From a virus, in IMG/VR virus record IMGVR_UViG_3300025648_000015, positions 52,146 through 116,145 of that record: a stretch of 64,000 nt of DNA; one strand, 5' to 3'. The translations under genes were made by a program, and so were the position numbers. The stretch's first letter is position 1, and every line of letters starts with the position of its first letter. Under the pieces are notes generated by a model that worked only from the letters and a program-made list of their open reading frames with translations, ran no database searches and was not told the origin of the DNA. Below, one piece after another: positions 15,461 to 62,378 of the stretch.

Positions 15461-15536
15461 GCCCTAGTAGCTCAACGGATAGAGCATCGGAGTTCTAACC
15501 CGCAGGTTGCAAGTTCGAGTCTTGCCTGGGGCACCA
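15461..15536 (+). tRNA. tRNA-Arg (anticodon TCT), CCA encoded
   Basis: A full cloverleaf of 76 nt: acceptor GCCCTAG/CTGGGGC (7 pairs, one G-U), D stem GCTC/GAGC, anticodon loop GTTCTAA, variable AGGTT, T stem GCAAG/CTTGC with loop TTCGAGT, then ACCA. The anticodon stem (TCGGA against CCCGC) pairs only at its three central positions, with mismatches 27-43 and 31-39, and base 32 is G rather than C/U. It reads AGA codons, which are frequent in these phage genes. Confidence 0.85.
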
Positions 15537-49692: not shown

Positions 49693-49713
49693 AGTATTAC
49701 CTCCTTTCTTTTA

Positions 49714-49776
49714 GTCTAGCCTCATCGGTGTAGAGACAACTACCTTCTACATACGCCTCACGGCGTTTCGGCTTTA
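49714..49776 (-). ncRNA. Hammerhead ribozyme-like element 1 (type II)
   Basis: On the minus strand, 5' to 3': AGCC, GAAA, stem III ACGCC-GTGA-GGCGT, A (H17), stem I TGTAGA/TCTACA with an 11-nt loop, then CCGATGA and GGCU. Stem II (AGCC/GGCU) is the open helix. Predicted cleavage is after the A at 49752. Core difference: C instead of U at position 4. It starts three bases after the stop of the gene at 49777 and ends before the ribosome site of the DUF2786 gene. Confidence 0.75.
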
Positions 49777-50019
49777 TTATAAAGCGTCTTTTAAATCACA
49801 GAATAACTTATGAAAATGATCCATTTGTTCTCCCATTGCATTGATTGCTTTATTAAACATATCTGATAAACTTTCATAAAAAGTGATATCAAGAGTGTTT
49901 TTGTTTTCGTTATAGATTTTAAACCCATTTAACAACTCATCTAAACGATAACCAATCGTAGAAATATTGTTGATAAGTTCGCTTACTTTCTCTAACTTTT
50001 CTTCATTACTTACTGTCAT
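49777..50019 (-). CDS. Hypothetical protein
   Basis: 80 aa, helical coiled-coil style (EEKLEKVSELINNISTIGYR, FYESLSDMFNKAINAMGEQMDHFHKLFCD). No family recognised. Its stop is followed immediately by hammerhead element 1. Confidence 0.65.
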   Translation of the reverse strand: MTVSNEEKLEKVSELINNISTIGYRLDELLNGFKIYNENKNTLDITFYESLSDMFNKAINAMGEQMDHFHKLFCDLKDAL

Positions 50020-50074
50020 ATTACCTAACTTAAATATTTAATGCAACCAATTTAAAATTAATGTTTCATACTTA

Positions 50075-50251
50075 CTATTTTACCTCCATAGGTTTATATT
50101 CACTACAATATGTCTCAAACTTGTTTTTACGAGTCCAAGATCCACATTCACGGCATTCTCCAGACTCTAAATCTTCAAATTCTGGATTCTGACTAATGTT
50201 CCATAAATGTGCTTCATATTCATGATCGCACCAACAATCTGGTTCATTCAT
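50075..50251 (-). CDS. Small Cys-rich protein
   Basis: 58 aa. NEPDCWCDHEYEAHLWN and ESGECRECGSWTRKNKFETYC: three Cys/His pairs, probably a zinc module. Found in the gap between two longer genes, with an ATG after GGAGCAAAT. No family recognised. Confidence 0.6.
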   Translation of the reverse strand: MNEPDCWCDHEYEAHLWNISQNPEFEDLESGECRECGSWTRKNKFETYCSEYKPMEVK

Positions 50252-50260
50252 ATTTGCTCC

Positions 50261-50467
50261 TTACTTGATATTATCTAATGCATTATTAAGTATTTCAGTT
50301 ATTTCTTTTTCTTTATCTCCTGTTTCTGTATTTTGATCAGGAAAAACCCATTCATCAATATTAGGAATGTAAACAGTTTTACCTTTTTCAAATTTAGCAA
50401 AAGTAGTAGGCCAATCTATAAGCCAACCATTTTCTTCTGACCATTTTACTACACAATGATATTCCAT
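50261..50467 (-). CDS. Hypothetical protein
   Basis: 68 aa, beta-rich N-terminus (EYHCVVKWSEENGWLIDWPTTFAKFEKGKTVYIP) with an acidic helical end. TAATG overlap with the next upstream gene. No family recognised. Confidence 0.6.
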   Translation of the reverse strand: MEYHCVVKWSEENGWLIDWPTTFAKFEKGKTVYIPNIDEWVFPDQNTETGDKEKEITEILNNALDNIK

Positions 50468-50598
50468 TATGTTTCCATTTCTATAATTATTTCTTCTAGT
50501 TGATTACAACGATCTAATAAATTAGATATAACATCTTTAGCTTCTGCTAATGTAGTTGGTTCTGTTAAACCAAAGTCATTTAATGTTAATTCTATCAT
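50467..50598 (-). CDS. Small helical protein
   Basis: 43 aa, acidic, TEPTTLAEAKDVISNLLDR then NQLEEIIIEMET. It overlaps the stop-start with 50261 (TAATG on the minus strand). Possibly a short coiled coil. No family recognised. Confidence 0.5.
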   Translation of the reverse strand: MIELTLNDFGLTEPTTLAEAKDVISNLLDRCNQLEEIIIEMET

Positions 50599-50600
50599 TA

Positions 50601-50738
50601 TTAATTAAATCCATAATGCTCAAAGATTTGAGCTCTAGCATCTTCAAGTTCATTATTGAGGTCTTGCAATGTACGATTATCAATACTCTTATCATTACCA
50701 AACCAATCAATTAGATCTTGTCTAGTTACTTCATTCAT
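50601..50738 (-). CDS. Small helical protein
   Basis: 45 aa, NEVTRQDLIDWFGNDKSI and LQDLNNELEDARAQIFEHYG. A GAAGGAG ribosome site precedes it and the direct repeat and hammerhead 2 lie upstream. No family recognised. Confidence 0.55.
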   Translation of the reverse strand: MNEVTRQDLIDWFGNDKSIDNRTLQDLNNELEDARAQIFEHYGFN

Positions 50739-50742
50739 TTTA

Positions 50743-50783
50743 CTCCTTCTCTCTTATATTTGCTACTATGCGTAATGCTTCTG
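50743..50783. repeat. 41-bp direct repeat, copy 1
   Basis: Identical to 51044-51084. In this copy the sequence is non-coding, upstream of the small gene at 50601. In the other copy the same sequence encodes the C-terminal end of the protein at 51035. It carries the ribosome site in both places. A local duplication has probably placed a gene end here. Confidence 0.8.
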
Positions 50784-50797
50784 TTCCTTACTATTAG

Positions 50798-50857
50798 CCT
50801 ATCTTATCAATGCATGGTGGCTAATCCATACAGACGCCTCCCGGCGTTTCGATTCTT
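50798..50857 (-). ncRNA. Hammerhead ribozyme-like element 2 (type II)
   Basis: Minus strand: AAUC, GAAA, stem III ACGCC-GGGA-GGCGU, C (H17, GUC site), stem I UGUAUGG/CCAUGCA with an 8-nt loop, then UUGAUAA and GAU. Cleavage is predicted after the C at 50833. Relative to CUGAUGA, position 3 is U and position 8 is A, a paired change that keeps the 3-8 base pair. It follows the stop of the gene at 50860 by a few bases. Confidence 0.72.
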
Positions 50858-50859
50858 TA

Positions 50860-51042
50860 CTATTCTATTTCCTCAATAATTATATCATTGATAGTATTTT
50901 TAATAGCAAATCCATTGTGTTCTAACCATCCCAATGCTTCTTTTTCAATTACATCGTCATCTTCAGAGTCAGATGTAATCGTAGTTATGAGCACAGCATA
51001 GTCAAACACAAACTGTACATTATATATATATGTTTTACTCAT
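50860..51042 (-). CDS. Hypothetical protein
   Basis: 60 aa. Beta-rich N-terminus (KTYIYNVQFVFDYAVLITTITSD) then acidic, with EEALGWLEHNGF-like helix. No family recognised. It overlaps the next upstream gene by 8 bp. Confidence 0.6.
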   Translation of the reverse strand: MSKTYIYNVQFVFDYAVLITTITSDSEDDDVIEKEALGWLEHNGFAIKNTINDIIIEEIE

Positions 51043-51199
51043 TCTCCTTCTCTCTTATATTTGCTACTATGCGTAATGCTTCTGCAAATCCTTGAGCAAA
51101 TCCATTCTCAAAATCAGTTTGCTTAGCCATTGCTAAGTTAATGTGATGACGAGTTTCATTACTCAATTGATAAAAAGATTTGTCTAATTTTTTACCCAT
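51035..51199 (-). CDS. Small charged protein
   Basis: 54 aa. GKKLDKSFYQLSNETRHHINLAMAK then GFAQGFAEALRIVANIREKENE. The last 15 codons lie in the 41-bp direct repeat. No family recognised. Confidence 0.55.
   Translation of the reverse strand: MGKKLDKSFYQLSNETRHHINLAMAKQTDFENGFAQGFAEALRIVANIREKENE
51044..51084. repeat. 41-bp direct repeat, copy 2
   Basis: Coding copy: encodes the C-terminus of the small protein at 51035 on the minus strand. Identical over all 41 bases with copy 1 at 50743. Low sequence divergence means the duplication is recent. Confidence 0.8.
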
Positions 51200-51201
51200 T
51201 A

Positions 51202-51618
51202 TTATTCCTTTGTTGTAACTAAACTATTAAGATAAATAAATACCTCAAAAGGTACTGGCTCTAGTTCCCAATTCCATACAACATCGTCTTCGTTGTAGTT
51301 TTGCCAGTCAACTTTATCATAGTTAACTACCTTAATACCAACAGTTTGGTCAATGTGATTTACAACAACTAACTTCCATGTATCACCATGAAGAGAAAGT
51401 CCGATACCATATCCAGTATCAGACATTACATCATCTTTAATCATTTCACTGAAGATAATACGGTTAAGGTATTCGTCATCACTCCAACGACCCTTGCCAC
51501 GTACTATAGCGTCAGCTACAACGTTTTCTAGATGACTAGCTCCCCAATGGGTATATAGATAGATAGAATGCTCTGATCCATATGTACCAATAAGTTGTAC
51601 TTGTCCACGGTCTCCCAT
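51202..51618 (-). CDS. Conserved hypothetical protein (MGDRGQV family)
   Basis: 138 aa. MGDRGQVQLIG, YLYTHWGASHLENVVADAI, RWSDDEYLNRIIFSEMI and DTGYGIGLSLHGD are pieces I recognise as a conserved set in actinobacteria and phages, function unknown. The stop is three bases from the gene downstream; its 5' leader carries a T-arm element and a GNRA hairpin. Confidence 0.7.
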   Translation of the reverse strand: MGDRGQVQLIGTYGSEHSIYLYTHWGASHLENVVADAIVRGKGRWSDDEYLNRIIFSEMIKDDVMSDTGYGIGLSLHGDTWKLVVVNHIDQTVGIKVVNYDKVDWQNYNEDDVVWNWELEPVPFEVFIYLNSLVTTKE

Positions 51619-51671
51619 GATTACCTACTTTCTTACTTGTTTGTTTATTTGTTTAACGTCTCCCGACGTAG

Positions 51672-51713
51672 TGCCTTGAGTAGGAGTCGAACCTACTCTA
51701 CGACCATCAAGGC
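51672..51713 (-). ncRNA. tRNA-like minihelix 1 (acceptor + T arm)
   Basis: Minus strand: GCCUUGA (51713-51707), linker UGGUCGUAGA, T stem GUAGG, loop UUCGACU, CCUAC, then UCAAGGC and A. All 7 acceptor pairs and 5 T-stem pairs are Watson-Crick, and the loop matches T54-T55-C56-R57-A58-N59-Y60. D and anticodon arms are absent and no CCA is encoded. It begins about six bases after the stop of the gene at 51720. A hairpin ACGTC-GGGA-GACGT follows. Confidence 0.75.
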
Positions 51714-51719
51714 TACCAT

Positions 51720-52103
51720 TTACCACCAACTATCGTAATATATTTCCATATCTTGTCCAATAGCTTTCATAGCATCATCAATAAACTTAAGGTCAATTTC
51801 TCTATCTTCTGGTAAACTTTCACCAAAGAAAAAACCTTGAGTTACTGGGAGTTTTTCATGTATTACAGCATGTCTTAAATTAACAAGGTCTTGAAATGTT
51901 ACTCGAACTGGTTGACAGTTAAAAACACCTTCTCCACCTTTACTTTCATATAACTTTTCCATCCAACCTTGAATGTTAGGATGTTTACGCCATTGAGCAA
52001 TTAAAAAGACTTTATCTTCAGATTGTTCATGAGTCCAAACATAACTTAAATCTGTATTGTTTGGATGAGGCATAACAGCATATGCATATTGGTCTAATCC
52101 CAT
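51720..52103 (-). CDS. Conserved phage protein (MGLDQYAY family)
   Basis: 127 aa. MGLDQYAYAV, then VFLIAQWRKHPNIQGWMEKLYESKGG, then FNCQPVRVTFQDL follow the pattern of a small phage family often found in actinophages and other phages, sometimes mislabelled as phosphoglycerate kinase. Function unknown. Confidence 0.7.
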   Translation of the reverse strand: MGLDQYAYAVMPHPNNTDLSYVWTHEQSEDKVFLIAQWRKHPNIQGWMEKLYESKGGEGVFNCQPVRVTFQDLVNLRHAVIHEKLPVTQGFFFGESLPEDREIDLKFIDDAMKAIGQDMEIYYDSWW

Positions 52104-52152
52104 TATGTTTCCTTTCTTACTTATTTATTTACTTGTTTGTGTCTCCCGACAG

Positions 52153-52194
52153 CACCCCAAGATAGAATCGAACTATCTTACAACCATTTGGGGT
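52153..52194 (-). ncRNA. tRNA-like minihelix 2 (acceptor + T arm)
   Basis: Minus strand: ACCCCAA, linker AUGGUUGUAA, GAUAG, UUCGAUU, CUAUC, UUGGGGU, G. Same geometry as element 1: 7-bp acceptor, 10-nt linker, 5-bp T stem, 7-nt T loop. The linker shares UGGUYGUA with elements 1 and 4, although the helices differ in sequence, so the pairing is compensated. Followed by TGTC-GGGA-GACA and by the gene at 51720. Confidence 0.75.
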
Positions 52195-52202
52195 TACCTT
52201 AG

Positions 52203-52859
52203 TTAGCTAGGCCAACTAATAGGAATTTCTTTACCATTAATAACAATGATTTTAGGTGTTTCCATTGCTTTATCAACAGCTTCAGATACTTCTTTAATTG
52301 TTTCCATCATAATAGATGGCATTGCTGCTAAACGTTGTTTCACCTCAGCTTCAACTGCTTGTTGCATTTCTGCATCAGACATAGTTGGAGCTAAAAACTC
52401 TTCCATAATTGGATCTTCTTCAATAGCATCTTCTGTTGTTACTGCTGCAGAAGTTGTTGCAGAAGGAACAGAAGTTTTATTTATATAACTTCCGTTAATA
52501 ATATAATATGGATAAAGTAAGGATTTCTTACCAGGAGCACCTTCATTTAACGATATAGACAACATCTTAGTAAGGAATTCTTCACGACCAGCTTCTTTGC
52601 TTGTGTGTTTAGAATTCACATCTTTGATGTAATCTTCAATTACAGCTTTAGCTGCTTTGTGATCAGTAAAGTAGAATCTACCAATTACACGACGAGCACG
52701 AGCATCTTCTGAATTGTACCACGTACAACGTACAAATACTTCAGAATAATAATCTCCGTGTTCTTTGTGTACAGTAAATGCTAGGTCTACAACATCACGA
52801 GTACGGTTGGAAGTCCAACCAGCACCATTAGCTTTAGCTACCCAAGTCATTTCTGACAT
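52203..52859 (-). CDS. Hypothetical protein
   Basis: 218 aa. Residues 1-95 form a likely globular domain (WVAKANGAGWTSNRTRDVVDLAFTVHK; EVFVRCTWYNSEDARARRVIGRFYFTD), then an Ala/Thr/Glu linker, then a C-terminal helix. No family recognised. Its end is followed by minihelix 2. Confidence 0.65.
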   Translation of the reverse strand: MSEMTWVAKANGAGWTSNRTRDVVDLAFTVHKEHGDYYSEVFVRCTWYNSEDARARRVIGRFYFTDHKAAKAVIEDYIKDVNSKHTSKEAGREEFLTKMLSISLNEGAPGKKSLLYPYYIINGSYINKTSVPSATTSAAVTTEDAIEEDPIMEEFLAPTMSDAEMQQAVEAEVKQRLAAMPSIMMETIKEVSEAVDKAMETPKIIVINGKEIPISWPS

Positions 52860-52887
52860 ATTATCTCACTTTCTTTTTCTTACTATT

Positions 52888-52949
52888 GACCTATCTCATC
52901 AGTGCATGGAGGTCATCCCATACATACCCCTCCCGGGGTTATCGACTAA
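52888..52949 (-). ncRNA. Hammerhead ribozyme-like element 3 (type II)
   Basis: Minus strand: GUC, GAUAA, stem III CCCC-GGGA-GGGG, U-A (GUA site), stem I UGUAUGGG/UCCAUGCA with a 6-nt loop, CUGAUGA, GAUAGGUC. The CUGAUGA box is perfect and C-G flanks stem II. The 5' core reads GAUAA where GAAA is expected, i.e. one extra U. Cleavage predicted after the A at 52925. Directly follows the stop of the gene at 52950. Confidence 0.72.
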
Positions 52950-53108
52950 TTAATCGATTGACTGCAATGGTACACCAAAATAGTCATTAAGACCTTCTTG
53001 TACACCACAAGGTGAACAAATATCAGTCTTGTTATCAACCCTAGACAAAGCAGGATATCCTGTCCAAGATTCTTTACAAAGTGGACATATAAATGTTTTT
53101 ACTGTCAT
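52950..53108 (-). CDS. Zinc-ribbon small protein
   Basis: 52 aa. TFICPLCKESWTG and TDICSPCGVQEGLNDYFGVPLQ are two CXXC knuckles of a four-Cys zinc ribbon. Such proteins, with the GLNDYFGV-like ending, are widespread in actinophages. ATGA-type overlap with the next gene. Hammerhead 3 follows its stop. Confidence 0.68.
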   Translation of the reverse strand: MTVKTFICPLCKESWTGYPALSRVDNKTDICSPCGVQEGLNDYFGVPLQSID

Positions 53109-53305
53109 GATTTTTCTATCATCCCTTCAGGCATTTTACAATAGCCATTTTCTATTAAATCCATAGCCATACGACCATAGTGTCCTTGTAGTTTCCAAGC
53201 CATACCATTGTCAATTAACTCTTGAAAAAGTTGGATAATTTCATTACCATCAAGTTCATCTTGTTCATAACTTATTATTTTATTTGTTAAATCATTAATA
53301 ATCAT
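53105..53305 (-). CDS. Small hypothetical protein
   Basis: 66 aa, acidic, helical (IIQLFQELIDNGMAWKLQGHYGRMAMDLIENGYC). The DNGMAWKLQGxYGRMA motif is common in short actinophage proteins of unknown role. Overlaps both neighbours by 1-4 bp. Confidence 0.65.
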   Translation of the reverse strand: MIINDLTNKIISYEQDELDGNEIIQLFQELIDNGMAWKLQGHYGRMAMDLIENGYCKMPEGMIEKS

Positions 53306-53694
53306 TATTTATCTTCTTCAAGTTGCCAATTAAATTTATCATCTTGTACTTGATTTAATTCATCATACAATGATTGAGCCATTTTTGCATGTTCTTCAGG
53401 CGTAGAAGGTACTTGTGACCTAAAATCAACACCAAATACAACGCCTACGTTACTAGCAAATGTAATAAGGTTTTGTAAAACCTCAGTACCTGCTTTAACA
53501 GCTTGGTCAAATGTATGTTTGAAGTCATCTGACTCTACATAACTATTAAACTCTGAAGGAAGTTCACCAGTTACATATTGACGATAAGCTTCAATGGTTG
53601 TCTGAATTGTGATTTGCATTTTAATACACATCATCAAATTATCAACTTCATTTTTAATGAGTTGTAATTTTAATTCATCTGACATGTTGTCCAT
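53305..53694 (-). CDS. Hypothetical helical protein
   Basis: 129 aa, helical (ELKLQLIKNEVDNLMMCIKMQITIQTTIEAYRQYV). No family recognised. Hammerhead 4 sits in its 5' leader. Confidence 0.6.
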   Translation of the reverse strand: MDNMSDELKLQLIKNEVDNLMMCIKMQITIQTTIEAYRQYVTGELPSEFNSYVESDDFKHTFDQAVKAGTEVLQNLITFASNVGVVFGVDFRSQVPSTPEEHAKMAQSLYDELNQVQDDKFNWQLEEDK

Positions 53695-53724
53695 CTTACT
53701 CTCTTTCTTGTTTAACTATTATCT

Positions 53725-53789
53725 GACTTGTCTCATCAGTACCCAAGTTGTCATCTTAGGTATACCCCTCACGGGGTTATCGACTAACG
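53725..53789 (-). ncRNA. Hammerhead ribozyme-like element 4 (type II)
   Basis: Minus strand: GUC, GAUAA, stem III CCCC-GUGA-GGGG, U-A, stem I UACCUAAG/CUUGGGUA with a 7-nt loop AUGACAA, CUGAUGA, GACAAGUC. Stem II pairs GUC with GAC, a mismatch, then four more pairs. The upstream stop codon at 53784 is itself part of stem II. GAUAA again replaces GAAA. Predicted cleavage after the A at 53763. Confidence 0.78.
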
Positions 53790-54182
53790 ATAATGTCTAT
53801 ATATTTTTGTATCATAAGATTCATCAAAATCTGGTTGTTCAGGAGATGGTGCTCCTTGCCATTCAGATAAAGTCTTAAGAAACCATGTTTCTGCTGCTGC
53901 ATCATCTTTACCATAAAAAACATAGCATAATGTTAACACAGCATCAACTGCTTCTTTAGCTATCCAACTACTTGTAAACTCCCTGGTCAAAAGTATTTCT
54001 TTCTTTTTTGTACCAGGAATAGGACGCATTACTTGTAATATAGCATTATGATTCATAAGATTACTTTGTACGCCTGCTTTTAATGATAAATATAAATTAA
54101 CATTAGTTCTATAATAAACAGTAGTCTTACAATTCCATGATACTTCATCACGAGAACGACGCCAATTAACTTGTCTTGACAT
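53784..54182 (-). CDS. Hypothetical protein
   Basis: 132 aa. RQVNWRRSRDEVSWNCKTTVYYRTNVNLYLSLKAG, then TREFTSSWIAKEAVDAVLTLCYVFYG and a Glu/Pro-rich end. No family recognised. Its stop overlaps hammerhead 4 stem II. Confidence 0.6.
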   Translation of the reverse strand: MSRQVNWRRSRDEVSWNCKTTVYYRTNVNLYLSLKAGVQSNLMNHNAILQVMRPIPGTKKKEILLTREFTSSWIAKEAVDAVLTLCYVFYGKDDAAAETWFLKTLSEWQGAPSPEQPDFDESYDTKIYRHYR

Positions 54183-54200
54183 GTTCTTCCTTTATTTTAA

Positions 54201-54434
54201 TTATAACCAATTGCTAAAATCTTTTAATAATTGATGTATTTCTCCAGTTGTATAACCATCTTCAATGTTATTAACTTCTTCACCGTTAACGTTATATATA
54301 CCTGAATCTAAATTCCCTGCTAGTTTCTTTAATAAATCAAGAAACAATTCTTGAAATTTAGGAAGTTGGTCTGGAGTATCGAATGATATTTCGATCTTCA
54401 TCTTGTTTCCTTGTTGCTCACCGCTTACTCTCAT
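54201..54434 (-). CDS. Small hypothetical protein
   Basis: 77 aa from the ATG at 54434 (ATGA overlap, GGAGGAATT site) or 66 aa from the ATG at 54401 with AAGGAAAC. Beta N-terminus (KIEISFDTPDQLPKFQELFLDLL). No family recognised. Confidence 0.55.
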   Translation of the reverse strand: MRVSGEQQGNKMKIEISFDTPDQLPKFQELFLDLLKKLAGNLDSGIYNVNGEEVNNIEDGYTTGEIHQLLKDFSNWL

Positions 54435-54772
54435 AATTCCTCCTCATGGTTATTACTGCATTCACAATCTGATGCGTGAAAAGATTTATCACTAAATTCT
54501 TCTCCAAATAAATACTTAGCATGCTTTTGAATAATCTTAAGAAGAGTTGCCATGTTAATGTTTACAATCTCTGATATGCTTTTGATTGATTCACCAACAA
54601 TTGGTATTTTATCTTCATCAACTTCATGCCAATGCTCAACCGCACCATGTAACCACATAGTAGGTTCACCCATATCCATGAATAGTGTCTTAATTTCACC
54701 TATCATATTACCATAGTTGATTCTGTCACTAGTTTCATGGTCTAAGGCAGCAGTGAATTGCTGTTCATCCAT
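54431..54772 (-). CDS. Hypothetical protein
   Basis: 113 aa, helical, with a short acidic Cys tail (ASDCECSNNHEEEL). FTAALDHETSDRINYGNMIGEIKTLFMDMG and VEHWHEVDEDKIPIVGESIKSISEIVNI. No family recognised. It is the first gene downstream of the large non-coding RNA region. Confidence 0.6.
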   Translation of the reverse strand: MDEQQFTAALDHETSDRINYGNMIGEIKTLFMDMGEPTMWLHGAVEHWHEVDEDKIPIVGESIKSISEIVNINMATLLKIIQKHAKYLFGEEFSDKSFHASDCECSNNHEEEL

Positions 54773-54799
54773 AATTACTCCTTACTTGTTTTGTTTGTT

Positions 54800-55335
54800 T
54801 AAGTGGGCATTTTAACGTCATACCCAGGACGGAGAGTTACAAAAGCTCACTCACAAGGCTAGTGGTTACCTTCACACCACTCAGGTCGTTGGCTCACCTA
54901 TACCACCAACAGGTCGCTAATTAAGGTTTAGACTGACCTCCATGAGCTTCCCCTCATGATGAGTATGTAGTACGATACAAGCGTGTGGGTGCGTTTGAGT
55001 CTGCACCACAATTAGACTCGGTCCCATATAACCGATAAAAGTTATATGGGATTGCCACGTTTTTTGGGTCAGTGACCTAGACCTCATAGTGTGTTGTTAA
55101 GGATGTTACTTCCTACCTAAGCTTCCCCTTTAGGCTGGGTTTGTGAATACAAGACTTGCAACTAGGCACTCTGGATTAATACAACATCCAATCTGGCGGG
55201 TTGACATAGCTGGCATCACAGATCAATAAAGCCCCCTGGCCTATCCAGAAGGGCTATGGAGATGCAACAACAAGAAGGAAAAGCACTCTCCATAACCCAT
55301 CTCAATAGGCTATGTAGAGACTTCATTCTTGTTAA
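54800..55335 (-). ncRNA. Large structured non-coding region (candidate ornate RNA)
   Basis: About 570 bp without a gene (54773-55344) but full of helices, read on the minus strand: a 12-bp GGG-TATGGAGA type stem (55250-55300), a 7-bp long-range helix ACATAGC/GCTATGT closing 55204-55315, TCCCATATAAC/GTTATATGGGA (55022-55051), GGTGC/GCACC and GAGTC/GACTC, CATGA/TCATG and CCTAA/TTAGG with the same loop GGGGAAGC, AGTGG/CCACT and GTTGG/CCAAC. Large phage RNAs such as GOLLD and ROOL have this style; I cannot assign it to either without a covariance search. Confidence 0.6.
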
Positions 55336-55344
55336 TAATTGATA

Positions 55345-55671
55345 TTAAAGAATCTCTTCTGCCGAGGCAATAATCTTCTTTAATTCACTTGGAAAATATA
55401 CTCCGTTATTCTCAAGAGATATTTGAAGCTCTTTAAGAATATCAACAAAATTACGAATCATCTCAATTAAGAGATTACGTTGCATTTCCAGTGATTCAGC
55501 CTTTTCATTGTAAAGGCCAACCAATTTATTAACCTTACCAAAAGTCTCAACTAGTTTCAATGCACGATTGCGCATTGCTTCAAGGTCTTCACTTTCAGTA
55601 AACTTGTCACGAATATTCTGCAACTGTTCTTCTGTTACTATCATTTTATTTACTTTCTTACTTGTAGCCAC
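55345..55671 (-). CDS. Hypothetical coiled-coil protein
   Basis: 108 aa, almost wholly helical with heptad-like runs (EDLEAMRNRALKLVETFGKVNKLVGLYNEKAESLEMQRNLLIEMIRNFVDILKELQ). No family recognised. Its stop leads into the large non-coding RNA. Confidence 0.62.
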   Translation of the reverse strand: MATSKKVNKMIVTEEQLQNIRDKFTESEDLEAMRNRALKLVETFGKVNKLVGLYNEKAESLEMQRNLLIEMIRNFVDILKELQISLENNGVYFPSELKKIIASAEEIL

Positions 55672-55711
55672 ACTTAATGGTAGTGACCTTCACCATGGGT
55701 AAAACAATTTA

Positions 55712-56086
55712 CTATTCACTATCTTTTGGCATGTAATGATCTTGATGGCCACAACGACCTTCGTTTTCATCACATAAAGGGTGGTGTTGATCATGAAGCA
55801 TGAATGGTGCACCAAGAACTTTAACAGCTTCTTTTTGCATTTCTTCATAAAACTCATTTAACTGATTAATTGCAAGCCCAAGCCCAAGTGGGAATACTTT
55901 TGTAATAAGATTTAAGTCATCTTCTGACCTATCCTCATCTAATAGCATTGCTGCAATTTTAGTAAATGGTTCCATGATTGTACCCATCTCAACGCCCCAA
56001 TCTTTAATACGATTGAGGTAATCAGCATGAGCAATACGTGCCTCTGCTGCTTCGTCAAGTGTTAGGTCGAGATCAAACTCTTCCAT
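55712..56086 (-). CDS. Hypothetical protein
   Basis: 124 aa, acidic and helical, with a His/Cys end (HDQHHPLCDENEGRCGHQDHYMPKD), possibly metal-binding. AGGAG site before the ATG. No family recognised. Confidence 0.62.
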   Translation of the reverse strand: MEEFDLDLTLDEAAEARIAHADYLNRIKDWGVEMGTIMEPFTKIAAMLLDEDRSEDDLNLITKVFPLGLGLAINQLNEFYEEMQKEAVKVLGAPFMLHDQHHPLCDENEGRCGHQDHYMPKDSE

Positions 56087-56221
56087 ATTACTCCTTTTAT
56101 TGCTTACTTACAGGACCAATTACGGCCCACTGCATACCAAATAGTATGCATGGCACCTGAGGGTCGCTTGATAGACCCCCAGGTCTCTGAGTTTATATAA
56201 CGTTACTCAGGGAACGCGTGA
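56087..56221 (-). ncRNA. Three consecutive hairpins in the gap
   Basis: Minus strand, between the VWA gene stop and the next start: CTGAGT/ACTCAG-type stem with an AT loop (56180-56205), a long stem ACCTG-GGGGTC / GACCC-CAGGT with loop UAUCAAGC (56155-56185), and TGCATAC/GTATGCA (56133-56152). The middle hairpin has an acceptor/T-arm-like stack with an 8-nt loop resembling a T loop but is not canonical. Structured RNA is likely; its class is not identified. Confidence 0.5.
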
Positions 56222-57718
56222 TTAAGACTTGCCAAGCAAAGCAGAACGAATAGGACCGGCAGGCTTATTAATAAGCTTACCTTTCTTAAACATTGATACT
56301 GCTTCTTCAACACTAGGAATCATAATGATCTTGTGTTTCTTGACGAGTTTAGCACACTGAATGATTATTTGATCATTCTGTCCACTACCCATAGATGTAA
56401 CTTGGCCGTCACTGACCCAGACAATGTCTTCGCCATGCTTACGACGACGAATTGCCCACGTCAATGCAGTACCGTCAACACCATTGTTCATACCACCGAT
56501 GTCACCGGTGTCTCGAACACGCCAACCACGATCAGCGAGTAGCCAAGCGTTGGGGCTGTCGCCACCACAATCACTATATGCCATAATGACTGCGGCAGGA
56601 GCTGCCTCAACAATCTCTTCGATGTCTGACTGTTTCAAATTCATAGAACCTGATATGTCAATAACAACGATGCCACCCTTAACTTTGATTTTCTGTCCAA
56701 AGATCCTACGTTCTGGATCTGTAAGCAGACGTGATGGGTAAGAGACACGACGACCTGATTGCATACCACGCTTTTTACGGCGCATATAACCTTTAACCTC
56801 AACGGTTAGTGGCTTGTCATCAGCCCAGACTAACTTACCAAATTCGCCATTGTCATAGTCAAATTCGAAATCATCTGGCATATCATCAGTGTTGAGTGTA
56901 ACAGGTTGATCACCAAGTGTATTCTTGTCAGGATCAAACTTATCAGGATCACCATAGTTAGCTGCACGCTGCTCTTCTTTCTTGCTGTGTATATCCTTAA
57001 TGTCTTTAGGGGCTTTGTACCCAGAAGACACATAGTCAGCAATATCAGAAGCAGCATACAGAGTGTGACGAAAACCAGTTGGGATATTAAAATTACTGTT
57101 AAACCTTACTGGAATGGTATCACCTAACTCAGATGCTGTGCCATTGAAATTGGTTTTCATTGACTTATTGAGTTGACGCAGTCGTTGACTCCATTCAGGT
57201 CTAACGGAACGAATTCCGCTAGCAAAAGAGTCGAAACTCTTAGTGCTATGATTCTGAACAGTGAATTGAACTGCTGCATCCCAAGATCGCATATCACCAG
57301 CTGTAGCCAACCGCTTACCAAAAGTCTTTTCAGCTCCGGTAGGCTCGTGATCCAACTGCTTGACTTTAGCAAACTGTTCTGTAATCGCATTGATGCGAGC
57401 TTGCTCAGCAACACGTAATACATCGGCTGTAATACCGTTGTTATTGTATGCTTTAGCAATACCAGAATAGATTGATGAGTCAAGAGGAGTAACACGAGCT
57501 TCGATAAGCTTCTCAAGCTGTAGACGCTGTGAATGGCTATCCCCCGAAAGAGGAATAGCCATTATACCAGCAATGAAGTCTACTTTAGCTCCGAAGTCAC
57601 CGACAGTTGGAACAATTTCCCAATTGATTGGATCCTTAACATCCTCACGGAATGAAGTAATAACGTTTGGTAACGGCATTACTTCATCTTCAAGGTAGCT
57701 TGGAGTCACTTCACTCAT
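56222..57718 (-). CDS. VWA-domain (CoxE/MoxR-partner) protein
   Basis: 498 aa. The C-terminal third is a von Willebrand A domain: GGIVVIDISGSMNLKQ (DxSxS metal site, about residue 350), AVIMAYSDCGGD, and DGTALTWAI then IVWVSDGQVTS. The N-terminal part is helical and charged. VWA proteins pair with MoxR AAA+ ATPases for maturation or assembly; the ATPase gene overlaps here by 4 bp. Confidence 0.82.
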   Translation of the reverse strand: MSEVTPSYLEDEVMPLPNVITSFREDVKDPINWEIVPTVGDFGAKVDFIAGIMAIPLSGDSHSQRLQLEKLIEARVTPLDSSIYSGIAKAYNNNGITADVLRVAEQARINAITEQFAKVKQLDHEPTGAEKTFGKRLATAGDMRSWDAAVQFTVQNHSTKSFDSFASGIRSVRPEWSQRLRQLNKSMKTNFNGTASELGDTIPVRFNSNFNIPTGFRHTLYAASDIADYVSSGYKAPKDIKDIHSKKEEQRAANYGDPDKFDPDKNTLGDQPVTLNTDDMPDDFEFDYDNGEFGKLVWADDKPLTVEVKGYMRRKKRGMQSGRRVSYPSRLLTDPERRIFGQKIKVKGGIVVIDISGSMNLKQSDIEEIVEAAPAAVIMAYSDCGGDSPNAWLLADRGWRVRDTGDIGGMNNGVDGTALTWAIRRRKHGEDIVWVSDGQVTSMGSGQNDQIIIQCAKLVKKHKIIMIPSVEEAVSMFKKGKLINKPAGPIRSALLGKS

Positions 57719-58476
57719 GATAGTGTGAACTCAGGAGTGAGTGTACCAATCTTGAGAGCATCGATGATTGGATCAGCCATTTTGCCGAACACCATACGAG
57801 CTGCACGCTCTACGCCAAAGCCAGGAGCAGAACGAAGCTGCTCGAAAGCCTTGAATGAACGTAGAGAAGCACGTTGGCCAGGTCGGCCTGCAACAATAAC
57901 TGCTGCAAGCTGACGCAATTCCACAGGCAATGCTGCGATCAAAGCTGCTGGATGAGCAGCATCAATCTTGATTGCAATTGGGAATCTGTCCTTAAGTGCA
58001 GTTGGCAACTCGTCCATGTCTTCCAAGTTAGTGGTCATCACAGCCGAGAACCCTGGATTTGGAGTAAACAACTCTCCAGTGTAGGGGTGCTTGAATGATG
58101 ATGATTCAACACTGTCTAGGAATGCAAGCAAAGTTGACTGTACGTCACCACCAGCTTTGTCGATCTCGTCAACAACGAGTCGAGCACCAGTAGTACCATT
58201 GCCGATCCAGGAGCGTAATGCAGCACCTGGGACAAAGGTGAATCCACCAACCTCGTTAGGCATAACTGAACCTGATACGTCAGCATTTGTCATATCCTCT
58301 GAGCAGATAAGACGCTCGGAGCCAGCTTCATTGATGCCGAAGTTGAGGCCAGAGTATGTCTTACCAGTGCCTGGAGGGCCGTAAAGGATGACACGGTCTA
58401 CACCGGCCGCCAGCACGTCCTCCAAGTCCTTGTAGCATTGAGGGACAGGGATGCCTTGGTATGTTGCTTCACTCAT
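57715..58476 (-). CDS. MoxR-like AAA+ ATPase
   Basis: 253 aa. Walker A is YGPPGTGKT (residues 32-40), Walker B is RLVVDEIDKAGG, and sensor 1 lies at FSAVMTTNLEDMDELPTALKDRF, where the sensor Asn and Arg finger are seen. MoxR family AAA+ with the VWA partner immediately downstream. The pair may load cofactors, remodel host complexes or help virion assembly. Confidence 0.85.
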   Translation of the reverse strand: MSEATYQGIPVPQCYKDLEDVLAAGVDRVILYGPPGTGKTYSGLNFGINEAGSERLICSEDMTNADVSGSVMPNEVGGFTFVPGAALRSWIGNGTTGARLVVDEIDKAGGDVQSTLLAFLDSVESSSFKHPYTGELFTPNPGFSAVMTTNLEDMDELPTALKDRFPIAIKIDAAHPAALIAALPVELRQLAAVIVAGRPGQRASLRSFKAFEQLRSAPGFGVERAARMVFGKMADPIIDALKIGTLTPEFTLS

Positions 58477-58554
58477 GATTTACTTACTTTCTTCTTGTTT
58501 ATTTTAGTTTGTAGTGCTTCCTTAGCACCAGGGCAGTCACTTATGTGACTCCGG

Positions 58555-58599
58555 CACTGCAGGTGGGAATCGAACCCACAACATCCTCCATGCTGCAGT
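58555..58599 (-). ncRNA. tRNA-like minihelix 3 (acceptor + T arm)
   Basis: Minus strand: ACUGCAG (58599-58593), 13-nt linker CAUGGAGGAUGUU, GUGGG, UUCGAUU, CCCAC, CUGCAGU, G. Seven acceptor and five T-stem pairs, all perfect. It is followed by AGTCAC/GTGACT and GTGCT/AGCAC hairpins before the MoxR gene. Confidence 0.75.
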
Positions 58600-58621
58600 C
58601 CCCCTTATTTAGGGAAATATA

Positions 58622-59095
58622 CTACTTTATTGCATGTACAGTCATTTTGCCATTGTGACGGTCAAAGTTAACTTTAACTTTCTTGTAACCCTTGACTCGT
58701 GCCTCTTTACGCAATTTAGTTTCAATTGCTTGAGCATTCATCTGATGGATAGGCAAGATAGCAGCTAATTCCTTATAACCAATAACATGACTATTTCCAT
58801 CAAGGATTTCGTCAAGCCACCAATTCAATTCAGACCATTTAATTATTACTGATGGTTTTGTATAAGGACGACGCAATGATTTGCTACGTGCATTCATTGA
58901 ATTAACCTTAGTTGGCGGTTTAGCTTTGGTAGCTACGGCTGCTGTTCCCTTACTTGCAGGTTTAACAGAACTATCAAATGATTCAATCAATTCGATAACC
59001 TGAATAACTTGACTTCGGGTAGCAGGACGCCCAAGAACTGTGTCAGTTAACTCTAACGCAGTCTTGATCACCTGGCTCATCTTACTGTTGGACAT
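58622..59095 (-). CDS. Hypothetical protein
   Basis: 157 aa. Helical N-terminus, basic Ala/Lys linker (ASKGTAAVATKAKPPTKVNSMNARSKSLRRPYTKPS) and a compact C-terminal domain (WSELNWWLDEILDGNSHVIGYKELAAILPIHQMNAQAIETKL), DNA-binding-like by composition only. No family recognised. Confidence 0.6.
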   Translation of the reverse strand: MSNSKMSQVIKTALELTDTVLGRPATRSQVIQVIELIESFDSSVKPASKGTAAVATKAKPPTKVNSMNARSKSLRRPYTKPSVIIKWSELNWWLDEILDGNSHVIGYKELAAILPIHQMNAQAIETKLRKEARVKGYKKVKVNFDRHNGKMTVHAIK

Positions 59096-59142
59096 TATGT
59101 CCTCCTTCTTTGTTTGTTGTTTTTGTTGTGCCTCCCGGCAGC

Positions 59143-59185
59143 ACCCCAGGCAAGAGTCGAACTTACCTTACGACCATCGGGGATA
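59143..59185 (-). ncRNA. tRNA-like minihelix 4 (acceptor + T arm)
   Basis: Minus strand: AUCCCCG, linker AUGGUCGUAAG, GUAAG, UUCGACU, CUUGC, CUGGGGU, G. The acceptor has one C-U mismatch and one U-G pair, the T stem one U-G pair. The linker shares UGGUCGUA with element 1. It starts six bases after the stop of the gene at 59191 and a hairpin TGCC-GGGA-GGCA follows. Confidence 0.7.
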
Positions 59186-59190
59186 CCGTA

Positions 59191-59718
59191 TTACTTACAT
59201 ATCTTCAAATCTGGACCCCATTCGGGAACCAAACTGTGATTACGTTGGTAATACCAGACAGCCACAAGTGATTGTTGATCACCAGTTGCTGCCTGTGGTG
59301 TAGCAGGCAATCCATGTATGTACCCTCTAGCATAATTCCATATGGATGGAATAAACTGATACCAACCAGCCGCCTTAGTGTGTATCTCAACACTAGTTAA
59401 GTGGTTTCTAGACTCATGGTATCGAATACAGGCAAACTGTGCTTGTATATGGATAGGCAATTGTCTTGTTGGATCAGTTGCAGAAGGCCATGCGGCTGTT
59501 ACATCTGTGGACATTGTATTCCATTGCATCAGAGCAGGAACCTCGTGCTTAACCACAATTGGCATGGTTTTCTCATACCAGTGCAGATTAGCCTTAGTTA
59601 CTGTCTGAACCTGATGTGGAAGCGCGGGCGGGCGTGCAGCAAATACTTGCCCCGAAATTCCTAAACTTCCCATCAATAGCAATGAAGTACATATACACAG
59701 CTTACGCAGTGTTTCCAT
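59191..59718 (-). CDS. Secreted transglycosylase-like protein
   Basis: 175 aa. Signal peptide residues 1-28 (basic METLRKL, hydrophobic CICTSLLLMGSLGIS, cut after VFA). The C-terminal 80 residues, QFACIRYHESRNHLTSVEIHTKAAGWYQFIPSIWNYARG, carry a CIRYHES Glu like the catalytic Glu of Rpf/SLT-type lysozyme folds and AGWYQFIPSIW like their AGAYQFMPxTW. Second muralytic-type gene in the window; likely exported in the same way. Confidence 0.7.
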   Translation of the reverse strand: METLRKLCICTSLLLMGSLGISGQVFAARPPALPHQVQTVTKANLHWYEKTMPIVVKHEVPALMQWNTMSTDVTAAWPSATDPTRQLPIHIQAQFACIRYHESRNHLTSVEIHTKAAGWYQFIPSIWNYARGYIHGLPATPQAATGDQQSLVAVWYYQRNHSLVPEWGPDLKICK

Positions 59719-59759
59719 GTACCTTGCTCCTTTCTTATTTGGAGTGATTCTTACTAACT

Positions 59760-59820
59760 TCTTTATTAATCACCCCATCGGCCCCCTCCCCTCATCGGGA
59801 GGAGACCTGTGCAATGATTA
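59760..59820 (-). ncRNA. Hairpin structure after stop codon
   Basis: Minus strand: the stop region TTAATCA pairs with TGATTAA, closing a region with CCTCCC-GATGAG-GGGAGG (59784-59803). The loop GATGAG resembles the hammerhead core but no GAAA/stem III is present. It is a structured leader or 3' end of the same sort as those at other gaps. Confidence 0.4.
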
Positions 59821-60219
59821 AAACTGGCTTACACCATCACGCTCTGGATTGTACAAATCAATATGCTGATTCTGTACAAGATGGAAGAAAGAGTTCGCGA
59901 TCTTATGTTCCGTACAGCTATTAACTGACTGGAACGGACCGTGCTTAACCTCTGAACGGATCACTTTCTTAGTGTCCTGAAACAGAGATTTTGCGGTGAC
60001 CTCTTTCAACCTGGGAGTACTAGATATAAGTTGCCAGACACCCGCGGGGGAGACTTCCATCTTAACCACCGCAAAGGTATCTGACAAATCAAAACAACCA
60101 ACGTGTATATGATGACGGCCAAAGTACTCCAGCCACTCATCAAAGACATAGCCCAAAGGACTATCTTCTACACGTACTTGATTGTACTTCCAGCACGCGC
60201 TGTGAAGTGTCATTAGCAT
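59818..60219 (-). CDS. Hypothetical protein
   Basis: 133 aa, alpha/beta with many aromatic residues (LHSACWKYNQVRVEDSPLGYVFDEWLEYFGRHHIHVGCFDLSDTF). No family recognised. It lies between the lysin-like gene and the parS-bearing gap. Confidence 0.58.
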   Translation of the reverse strand: MLMTLHSACWKYNQVRVEDSPLGYVFDEWLEYFGRHHIHVGCFDLSDTFAVVKMEVSPAGVWQLISSTPRLKEVTAKSLFQDTKKVIRSEVKHGPFQSVNSCTEHKIANSFFHLVQNQHIDLYNPERDGVSQF

Positions 60220-60612
60220 AACACTACCTTACTTTCTTGTTATTTACTTAGCTTGCATACCCCCAAGCCAGGGAAGGATATATCTGTACTCCCGTACATA
60301 GATAACCCTGTAGCCACCACCATACCTTTATATGATGATGACTACACAGCCACCTATAAACTGCATGTATACCTAAGGTATCCACACCACTTTACACCAC
60401 ATCGCTCCACATCAAACCACTATGCTCCATATGAGTACCATTATAGTGGTAAAGAGAGTGCCTTAGATATGTGTAAACATGTCTCAAAATATGCCCATTT
60501 TTATAATATATAGGAAATAAACGGCCACATAGCATAATAAGCTATTACCTTACTATGATCCGATCTTATGCCCTAAGTAAATAAGCTATTATATGTATAT
60601 CGGATCGATATA

Positions 60613-60630
60613 ATGTTCCACGTGGAACAT
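60613..60630. promoter_or_regulatory. parS-like ParB-binding palindrome (perfect)
   Basis: ATGTTCCACGTGGAACAT is a perfect 18-bp palindrome. The core TGTTCCACGTGGAACA matches the bacterial ParB site family TGTTNCACGTGNAACA. No ParB or ParA gene is visible in this window, so a host ParB may be the reader. Confidence 0.75.
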
Positions 60631-60713
60631 ACTGACTAACATATGCGGAGATCCAATACACCCGTATATTATTTCCTTACTAGGGTATTAGCTTATTAGC
60701 ATAATAGCCTATA

Positions 60714-60729
60714 CGTTCCACGTGAAACA
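60714..60729. promoter_or_regulatory. parS-like ParB-binding site (second copy)
   Basis: CGTTCCACGTGAAACA, 14 of 14 at the core GTTYCACGTGRAAC positions. It lies 100 bp from the first site and 13 bp from the stop of the gene at 60743. Two sites close together are typical of ParB-recruiting loci. Confidence 0.72.
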
Positions 60730-60742
60730 TATCGAACTTGAA

Positions 60743-61051
60743 TTAGAAGCTTAGCTCTATTCCATCCAGAGCCCACTCTGATACTAATGGGCATATGGTA
60801 TAGGTAAGTTTGATGGGCTTAGATGAGTAGTTTGTTTCCCCGACGACATGCGCGGAGATAGTATCTTCCTCATCATTAATAACCCACTTGGTAGGTGCTA
60901 TACCATAGAACTCAGTCATACTAATGACTGCCATTTCCACGGATGGAAAACTATCTTGTATAACACCACACCTGGTCTTAGCCTTATGGACAATCCTATC
61001 CCATAGAGTAGGCCGGTCAATCCAAGTTATCACAAATCGCTCTTCGATCAT
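60743..61051 (-). CDS. Hypothetical protein
   Basis: 102 aa, beta-rich (RFVITWIDRPTLWDRIVHKAKTRCGVIQDSF; TNYSSKPIKLTYTICPLVSEWALDGIELSF). Higher GC than most leftward genes. No family recognised. Confidence 0.58.
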   Translation of the reverse strand: MIEERFVITWIDRPTLWDRIVHKAKTRCGVIQDSFPSVEMAVISMTEFYGIAPTKWVINDEEDTISAHVVGETNYSSKPIKLTYTICPLVSEWALDGIELSF

Positions 61052-61098
61052 GATTATATTCCTTTCTCTTACTTATATTTAGTTTCCCCATAAGGGAG

Positions 61099-61144
61099 CA
61101 CCTCGGAGGGGAATCGAACCCCTCCAAGCCCACCAGGGCGAGGT
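61099..61144 (-). ncRNA. tRNA-like minihelix 5 (acceptor + T arm)
   Basis: Minus strand: ACCUCGC, linker CCUGGUGGGCUUGG, AGGGG, UUCGAUU, CCCCU, CCGAGGU, G. Six of seven acceptor pairs and all T-stem pairs form; the innermost pair is C-C. The linker again contains UGGU. It lies after the stop of the gene at 61165 and before the gene at 60743. Confidence 0.7.
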
Positions 61145-61164
61145 TACCTACTACTTACAACCTA

Positions 61165-61932
61165 TTACAGGTTGTTCTTGATGCTCTTGAATGTCTCAAG
61201 GAATAGCATCTGCTGGAACAGCTTCTTCTGGTCCTCAGCCATCTCTTCCACAGTCTCCTGTGAGAGCTTGTTGAGTGCTTCAGAGTACGTGTTGATAACA
61301 CCGCTGGCCTGAACGTGGTTCAGAACGGTGTCGTACACTACAGGTGAACCGAGAGCGATTGCACGGTTCTTGGTAGCACCTGTCTCTGGAAGCATGTAGA
61401 ACTTCTGCTGTGCCAGATCCTTAACGTACAGCTTGATGCGTAGCTCAGCACCGTTCAGCTTCTCGTACTGCTCAATTGCAGTTACGATGCCACTGGTTAC
61501 GTACTGGCGCTGACGCAGCACCTCGTAGTACTGACGACCCTTCTTGTCCGTCAACAGTCCAGAGTTGATAATGAACTGTGTACGGGAACGGTTGTACTTA
61601 CCCGAGTACGCCATAGATGGAGTAACGATGTCGCTTGGCTCGATGCGAGTAGCAACTTCTACAAGCTTACGACCGTACTCGAGGTTCTGGTTAGTGAACA
61701 CATCGAATACACGTCCCATGCTGTAGTCGTTGTCTTGCTTAGCCATGCTGATAGCGTTGCCAGCAATCTGGTCGTAGGTGAATCCACCCAAGATCAGATA
61801 CTGAACAGCGTCCACCAACATCGTGTGCTCTGCTGACGACTCCACTGATGTGTCAACGAAGGCTGCACGTAATACTTCTTGTGCCTCCTCTGCTGTCATT
61901 GATACAGTGTTGGATACATTGAATTCTGACAT
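61165..61932 (-). CDS. Hypothetical protein
   Basis: 255 aa. VSMTAEEAQEVLRAAFVDTSVESS, then AVQYLILGGFTYDQIAG and a basic SGKYNRSRTQFIINSGLLTDKKGRQYYEVLRQRQYV. Codon use is GC-richer than the rest of the leftward operon. It resembles a late, abundant protein by composition only. Near its 5' end the leader carries the cloverleaf element. Confidence 0.6.
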   Translation of the reverse strand: MSEFNVSNTVSMTAEEAQEVLRAAFVDTSVESSAEHTMLVDAVQYLILGGFTYDQIAGNAISMAKQDNDYSMGRVFDVFTNQNLEYGRKLVEVATRIEPSDIVTPSMAYSGKYNRSRTQFIINSGLLTDKKGRQYYEVLRQRQYVTSGIVTAIEQYEKLNGAELRIKLYVKDLAQQKFYMLPETGATKNRAIALGSPVVYDTVLNHVQASGVINTYSEALNKLSQETVEEMAEDQKKLFQQMLFLETFKSIKNNL

Positions 61933-62024
61933 ATTGTCTTCCTTCTTTTCTTATTTATTTGTTTCCTCAGTTCCGCTGAGTTACCGGTACTGCTGTTACT
62001 CCTGCATCCCTGCAGTGGTAACGT

Positions 62025-62089
62025 CCCTAGGTCAGATTTGACCCTGACCCTCCGTTGGACTGGAGTCTAGGTGGATAGCCTAGATAGGG
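62025..62089 (-). ncRNA. Perfect four-way cloverleaf RNA
   Basis: Minus strand, 65 nt with no unpaired junction base: CCCUA closes on UAGGG; inside are UCUAGG-CUAUCCA-CCUAGA (6 bp), CUCC-AGUCCAAC-GGAG (4 bp) and GGUCAG-GGUCAAAU-CUGACC (6 bp). The last loop resembles a T loop (GGUCAAAU). It starts about eight bases after the stop of the gene at 62097. A tRNA-like or attenuator-type element. No anticodon or CCA, so it is not a tRNA. Confidence 0.6.
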
Positions 62090-62096
62090 TAACCCG

Positions 62097-62378
62097 TTAG
62101 TCTGTCAAGACTACGAAGTTAGGCTTGATATCCTCTACCCTGACTTCGTTATAATCGTTGCATATGACGACCTCGATATCACCTGTGCCACTGATAACAG
62201 TGACACAAAGATCTGCCCCGAGTAGACCAGGTATAAACTTCCTATCTGGATCTTTGCGTACCGAGTTCCATCTGTTTTGTACAGCCAACAGAAGTGAACC
62301 TCCATACAGCTCTCTAGGTTGAGGCTCAGGTGTATCTGACCAGATCATTGTTGACCAGGCTAGAATTGTCTCTGACAT
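62097..62378 (-). CDS. Hypothetical protein
   Basis: 93 aa. TILAWSTMIWSDTPEPQPRELYGGSLLLAVQNRWNSVRKD then LLGADLCVTVISGTGDIEVVICNDYNEVRVEDIKPNFVVL, beta-rich. No family recognised. Good AAAGGAAATA site. Confidence 0.6.
   Translation of the reverse strand: MSETILAWSTMIWSDTPEPQPRELYGGSLLLAVQNRWNSVRKDPDRKFIPGLLGADLCVTVISGTGDIEVVICNDYNEVRVEDIKPNFVVLTD

Follow-up and report, generated by a model that had tools for sequence, protein, structure and literature searches.

The 64,000-base stretch of viral DNA analysed here (the window) corresponds to bases 52146–116145 of the 116,145-base IMG/VR virus record IMGVR_UViG_3300025648_000015. The virus is a tailed phage in which portal, terminase and baseplate J families, DNA polymerase III alpha and DnaB were found, and neither megablast nor tblastn gave a match of the window to named phages. 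A row of small genes forms a leftward operon on the minus strand (about 62.9 to 48.2 kb), to which all features described below belong unless stated otherwise. Among its approximately 15 noncoding gaps of more than 60 bases, nine carry either a hammerhead ribozyme or a minihelix, a tRNA-like element with stacked acceptor and T stems. The element starts 1–30 bases past the stop codon, and behind it comes an A-rich spacer that includes a ribosome-binding site. This is in agreement with an earlier reading of the stretch (the original prediction), according to which most gaps of this size hold a structure just past a stop codon. Model scans detected no further hammerhead or minihelix in the rest of the record, apart from the true tRNA-Arg (15461–15536, plus strand; ARAGORN and Rfam), whose encoded CCA contrasts with the CCA-less minihelices of the window. 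This tRNA was also the only Rfam match in the window at the gathering score; matches to microRNA, plastid and snoRNA families were set aside as chance.

The AAA ATPase gene of the operon (57715–58476; Pfam AAA_5) served as the bait for collecting relatives, which yielded 80 loci (designated by L numbers); a 255-aa protein used as bait retrieved the same virus only. The relatives share the gene order of the window operon, so the gaps can be matched across them, and their hammerheads and minihelices are likewise located on the operon's coding strand.

The four hammerheads that the original prediction had placed in the operon gaps were all detected with a covariance model (R3) built from other phages only (L007, L009, L090 and L092; no window or near-identical sequence), and all four are type II. 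In a scan of the complete record (116,145 bases), R3 returned exactly these four elements at E ≤ 1.1e-14 and the next match had E = 0.11 (E-values from the models built in this analysis are rough). Hammerheads 1 (53717–53785, E = 1.1e-14) and 2 (52880–52947, E = 1.1e-14) combine the core CUGAUGA with GAUAA, which contains an extra U; their predicted cuts lie between 53763 and 53762 and between 52925 and 52924, respectively. Hammerhead 3 (50788–50854, E = 3.5e-15; predicted cut between 50833 and 50832) has the core UUGAUAA, in which C3U together with G8A preserves the 3-8 pair. The core CCGAUGA (U4C) of hammerhead 4 (49706–49773, E = 1.1e-17; predicted cut between 49752 and 49751) is common to seven distinct hammerheads. 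The general layout is C-GAA(A)-stem III hairpin-UH-stem I-CUGAUGA. Stem II is open and measures 2–3 bp, and loop I pairs with the tail 3′ of stem II to form a pseudoknot. In an alignment of 14 sequences, 100% of the stem III cells and 92.9% of the cells of both stem I and stem II were paired. Thirteen of 19 pairs were changed on both sides, the number of double-changed cells was 56 as compared with 17.9 after shuffling, and the covariation score was 0.577 (0.192 shuffled, at most 0.116 slid); the pair counts given here and for the minihelices ignore relatedness among the sequences. The pseudoknot is apparent as complementarity in the window copies, and three of its five pairs were double-changed in the alignment, where only 61% of its cells were paired because the registers differ.

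Each core deviation in the window falls in a variant class that was reported or discussed as retaining some activity (Perreault et al. 2011, PMC3088659). In that study, hammerheads with a covarying U3-A8 pair were active, the U13a insertion was thought to be tolerated, and U4C was slower in vitro, yet sufficient in vivo for a viroid. The window hammerheads are therefore likely to self-cleave, possibly slowly. The presence of four non-consensus cores in one operon (49706–53785), in contrast to the mostly consensus hammerheads of phages, might reflect tuned, slower ribozymes. Phage contigs L092, L149, L175 and L179 carry six or seven type II hammerheads apiece, and the stem III pattern alone was found in at least 120 viral contigs.

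The five predicted minihelices are also present, but they proved to be more than an acceptor/T arm. An acceptor/T stack of 12–13 bp with the T-loop UUCGANN is joined by a short GG-bearing linker that replaces the D and anticodon arms, and the GG-containing loop is often closed by two to three pairs, like a tiny D arm. Model R1, built from ten relatives and no window copies, recovered all five (E = 3e-9 to 0.013). Minihelix 1 (61098–61145, E = 2.6e-4, folding z −3.4) has a 5 + 7 bp stack, a mini D arm CCC-UGGU-GGG and the T-loop UUCGAUU, and a short hairpin follows it at about 61097–61085. Minihelix 3 (58554–58600, E = 3.9e-5) lies upstream of the AAA ATPase gene. The linker is GAUGGUCGUA in minihelices 2 (59141–59184, E = 0.013) and 5 (51671–51714, E = 3.7e-4) and AAUGGUUGUA in minihelix 4 (52152–52195, E = 3e-9). 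Just as predicted, GNRA-type hairpins occur, and they stand behind these three of the five elements (at about 59140–59129, 51669–51656 and 52151–52140, respectively). Minihelix 2, the weakest, scores about as high as the real tRNA-Arg and rests on its context and on its exact match to the widespread pattern described below (L255 in the pattern listing). The gap of minihelix 5 holds a minihelix in L003, L007, L008, L010 and L083–L085 too.

In the ten relatives, 98.6% of the minihelix cells were paired and 11 of 14 pairs were double-changed. With all matches included, changes on both sides were found in 12 of the 14 pairs (81 double-changed cells versus 24.6 shuffled). The linker forms a clear D arm of two to three pairs around (U/C)GG(U/C) in relatives L007–L010 and L083–L085, and the alignment of the relatives shows no variation in this GG. 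The original prediction has thus withstood the comparison with relatives, in which a lack of covariation would have counted against it, and a chance origin of hammerheads and minihelices was rejected on the basis of the covariance models and shuffles. Single-sequence folding energies were unconvincing (z mostly −1.2 to −1.7); the evidence for these predicted window elements is comparative.

Neither ARAGORN nor the Rfam tRNA model at its gathering score called any of the five minihelices, the tRNA-Arg at 15461 being the sole call in the window, and an anticodon arm with a 7-base loop is absent from all five. ARAGORN detected no tmRNA in the window, and the Rfam tmRNA matches were 17-base fragments below the cut-off. 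In L004–L010, the gap upstream of the AAA gene is occupied by a complete cloverleaf that has no proper anticodon loop and whose acceptor is the same as or very like that of minihelix 3 (ACTGCAG/CTGCAGT in most). Several of these cloverleaves were called by ARAGORN with odd or two-base anticodons, but on the tests applied none of them qualifies as a decoding tRNA, L006 and L010 being the nearest. Such full forms would be expected if the minihelices were functionless decayed tRNA genes or recombination remnants. This explanation is extremely improbable: it is excluded by the compensatory changes in nearly every pair, the invariant GG and a recurring linker, RAUGGUYGUA. An interpretation of the minihelices as tRNA genes was rejected as well.

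A pattern derived from the window (AUGGUNGUA, 4–7 bases, GUUCGANUC) gave matches to at least 119 stretches in more than 100 viral contigs; because such scans prescribe part of the linker and of the T arm, variants are under-counted and the frequency of the family is not estimable from them. Acceptor and T stems are formed at 86 of the 103 distinct sites (14.7 with the acceptors shuffled) and, when matches in genomes are included, at 125 of 153 (19 expected after shuffling). The bases flanking AUGGU covary (A-U 54, G-C 29), and the 10-base linker RAUGGUYGUA recurs across unrelated phages. The wider family thus has the coaxial stack of about 12 bp under a T-loop that is found in RNase P acceptor/T-arm substrates: by a register-free count, the stack is 12 bp long in 60 and 13 bp long in 44 of the 125 folding sites. 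An earlier fixed-register scan had retained only 53 of 143 sites because the acceptor length varies. CCA follows the discriminator at two of the 125 sites.

In bacterial genomes, a stricter pattern matched 51 stretches, mostly in Streptomyces and relatives, and the location of some copies near GntR-like or other genes suggests integrated elements. Unannotated copies were also found in named phages, i.e. Mycobacterium phages Journey13 (two copies) and Phlei, Streptomyces phage Dagobah, and Gordonia phages (VanLee and others); in the annotated records examined they lie within or border gaps of same-strand operons. For the other phages, in which open reading frames (ORFs) were called mechanically and crudely, 24 copies were assigned to same-strand gaps versus 5 expected, 25 were 'antisense' and 14 'inside ORF', the latter two classes probably owing in part to false ORFs. 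Rfam 15 gave no match in the loci of the wider family at E ≤ 0.5. Since the family was found in neither Rfam 15 nor the open-access papers searched, it is apparently undescribed. In several contigs (L299, L319, L320, L322 and L335), the minihelix stands between GGYNN repeat tracts resembling the vrRNA arrays of VIPR systems. GGYNN repeats are a signature of VIPR guide RNAs, and vrRNA arrays interspersed with hammerheads have been reported (2026 preprint, PMC13142463). The minihelix in such repeat arrays may be a separator or a structured tail of the guide RNA.

We have found that hammerhead and minihelix replace each other at orthologous gaps, which is a new observation. Upstream of the gene encoding a 218-aa protein (52203–52859), which matched no PHROG or Pfam family, the gap is occupied by a hammerhead in the window (hammerhead 2), L003, L007 and L083–L085, whereas L008 and L010 have a minihelix there and L004 and L005 a hammerhead-like skeleton devoid of the catalytic core. 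The orthologs of the 218-aa protein are 29–31% identical (pairwise E = 8e-32 and 2e-34), and the downstream gene is likewise homologous. A second gap (family F10) contains a hammerhead-like element whose 15.1-16.1 pair is an unusual U-A in L083/L085 (E = 3.5e-6), a tRNA-like cloverleaf in L008, a minihelix-like element in L010 and a non-tRNA cloverleaf in the window and L005. Because unrelated folds occupy the same place, one shared job is suggested, and cutting is the property they have in common.

We consider it probable that hammerheads and minihelices are interchangeable 'cut here' tags, one self-cleaving and the other intended for host RNase P/RNase Z. The operon would be transcribed as one long RNA, which would then be cut at the gene boundaries. 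In four gaps, the RNA would be cut by the type II hammerhead itself, with stem III, stem I and the open stem II held by the pseudoknot of loop I with the 3′ tail. The upstream gene would thereby receive a 2′,3′-cyclic phosphate and the downstream RNA a 5′-OH, so that the latter would start with the stem I/pseudoknot fold. In five gaps, host RNase P would cleave at the 5′ end of a tRNA mimic that has no anticodon arm (12–13 bp acceptor/T stack, UUCGA T-loop and GG-loop elbow), and RNase Z might also cleave at the 3′ end, CCA being absent. Both kinds of elements would supply each gene with a defined, folded end and would be functionally interchangeable. No phage RtcB or RNA ligase for rejoining the ends was found. 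The identity of the folds, their covariation, strand and gap placement, their replacement at orthologous gaps and the wide recurrence of the minihelix are observed, and from these we infer the cleavage, the enzymes and the effect on stability.

The part assigned to host enzymes is in accordance with their known substrate requirements. RNase P gauges the distance from the T-loop to the acceptor, and CCA is an antideterminant that blocks RNase Z (PMC4919913). E. coli RNase P RNA cleaves acceptor/T-arm hairpins (PMC11143913); RNase P can dispense with the D-loop, and RNase Z reads the same acceptor/T stack (PMC4919913; PMC11143913). The 12–13 bp stack fits the RNase P ruler and the presence of CCA at only 2/125 sites fits the RNase Z antideterminant; minihelix geometry and the near-absence of CCA thus point to host-enzyme cutting at the 5′ end, and possibly at the 3′ end. 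With less confidence, although still leaning towards it, we extend this reading to the whole family: the widespread anticodon-less tRNA mimics of about 43 nt (acceptor, R-AUGGU-Y-GUA linker, T arm, no CCA) in tailed phages and actinobacterial mobile elements would represent a portable RNase P/RNase Z tag, interchangeable with type II hammerheads between operon genes and between guide-RNA-like repeat tracts.

Other operon gaps contain different folds. The perfect cloverleaf described in the original prediction does exist (62090–62017, folding z −2.6), but this four-way structure is devoid of a T-loop and is not a tRNA; comparison by eye revealed a similar cloverleaf in the same gap of L005. An H-type pseudoknot motif (54803–54831; CGUC CUGGGUAU GACG ... 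GCCCAC), to which Rfam gave no match in the window, recurs in gaps of L004, L005, L007, L008, L010 and L083–L085. It consists of a stem closed by the loop CUGGGUAU, UAAACU and GCCCAC, and the stem covaries visibly, as judged by eye. A possible second H-type pseudoknot (55667–55696; AUGGU ... ACCAU, with the loop pairing to GUGGC) was likewise recognized by eye. About 570 bases without a convincing gene (54773–55344) might form a large structured RNA; in relatives, roughly the corresponding position in the gene order is likewise taken up by a long noncoding stretch. A multi-hairpin RNA of about 110 bases (56087–56221) between the gene of a 498-aa protein and the next gene is kept in relatives with altered stems. 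The hairpin at 59719–59817, with a conserved internal loop (UUGCACAG ... CGAUGGGG) and an outer AAUCA/UGAUU stem, is kept in L003 and L083–L085. Two exact parS-like palindromes (GTTYCACGTGRAAC; 60615–60628 and 60715–60728; 0.04 expected by chance) are located in one long operon gap, and no protein of the ParB_N family was found in the record or in three relatives.

Several points weigh against cutting as the common function. The consensus core (CUGANGA / GAA / A-UH) is absent from all four window hammerheads, CUGANGA being present in 89 of 100 distinct hammerheads in a loose census, and some of the variant classes are slow. With the Rfam model Hammerhead_II (RF02276), the best window copy (hammerhead 2) reached 24 bits versus a gathering score of 37, which is an inclusion threshold and not a structural feature; a relative of the same operon scored 40 bits. 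The minihelices are devoid of the 3′ CCA that bacterial RNase P uses. A 3′ RCCA aids cleavage by this enzyme but is not always required. The minihelix of the repeat arrays could be the structured tail of a guide RNA instead of a separator. Several operon gaps carry folds with no known cutter, and the idea that every gap is cut is unsupported. The two-route cutting of the message envisaged originally is supported in part: the covariation, the replacement of the folds, the tRNA-like stack length and the repeat-tract setting speak for it.

The main rival to the 'cut here' tags are non-cutting stability elements, i.e. end-protecting or insulating folds which stop exonucleases (5′–3′ and 3′–5′) or uncouple the translation of neighbouring genes, the hammerhead cores being minor or decaying. 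Protecting elements would occupy identical places, and the non-consensus state of all four cores would be readily explained, as would the H-type pseudoknots, multi-hairpin RNA and cloverleaf of the other gaps. L004 and L005 even keep a hammerhead-like skeleton with the pseudoknot but have lost the catalytic core. However, elbow and stack length of the minihelix are preserved exactly as tRNA-processing enzymes read them, which would be needless for plain protection, and the hammerhead variants belong to classes reported or discussed as still active, including the compensated C3U/G8A pair. We find protection or insulation unlikely as the main role. The mimicry of the tRNA elbow and acceptor could also indicate that the minihelices regulate host tRNA-binding factors or act as decoys for them (CCA-adding enzyme, EF-Tu or tRNA-cutting defence nucleases), and interference of phages with tRNA-targeting defences is known. 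This is quite improbable, since the position right after stop codons and the replacement by a ribozyme at orthologous gaps point to a local role in cis, there is no anticodon loop for anticodon nucleases and the CCA end almost never occurs.

The components of the proposed tag system have partial counterparts. The claim that a combined system had not been described stands insofar as nothing was found in open-access papers on the minihelix family or on the combination; hammerheads flanking prophage genes, among them tandem sets that are cut out of polycistronic transcripts, had already been published in 2011 (Perreault et al., PMC3088659). As that study comprises both such gene-flanking hammerheads and type II hammerheads with a loop I/tail pseudoknot, the window hammerheads join a known kind. 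They share with the type II hammerheads of prophages and metagenomes (RF02276; PMC3088659) the short open stem II, the loop I/3′-tail pseudoknot, the intergenic location in phage operons, the several copies flanking genes and the variants (U13 insertion, U3-A8 and U4C), but they differ in having four non-consensus cores in one operon, in being mixed with tRNA-like elements and in scoring at most 24 bits. Non-tRNA substrates of RNase P include acceptor/T-arm hairpins, M3 RNA of phage phi80, C4 RNA of P1/P7 and polycistronic mRNAs (PMC11143913). The acceptor/T-arm stack with a T-loop, the phage origin and the precedent of mRNA cutting are common to these and the minihelices; the former are single cases or synthetic, whereas the latter are a conserved family in the operon gaps of many phages with predicted cleavage. 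In the vrRNA arrays, hammerheads are interspersed much as minihelices stand between GGYNN tracts here; the main text of the preprint (PMC13142463) makes no mention of tRNA-like elements, and our contigs are likened to these arrays on the basis of their repeats. The tRNA-like domain of tmRNA and mascRNA/menRNA also have an acceptor, a T arm and a reduced D region, but the minihelices have no tmRNA body and gave stray sub-threshold Rfam matches only. Mitochondrial transcripts are punctuated by tRNAs, mostly working ones, and plant mitochondrial t-elements are cloverleaf-like cut marks between genes. The minihelices resemble these cloverleaf-like structures in position but differ in lacking an anticodon arm and in alternating with hammerheads.

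The idea is directly testable because Journey13 (M. smegmatis mc2 155) and Dagobah (S. coelicolor M600) carry unannotated copies and, if it is true, the minihelix would be a small genetic part for RNA cutting in actinobacteria. Phages would then make large-scale use of tRNA mimics to shape polycistronic RNA, which would have escaped notice because annotation tools need an anticodon. Such tags would explain how single genes on long phage transcripts obtain separate ends and life-times, and host RNase P and RNase Z would enter phage gene control.

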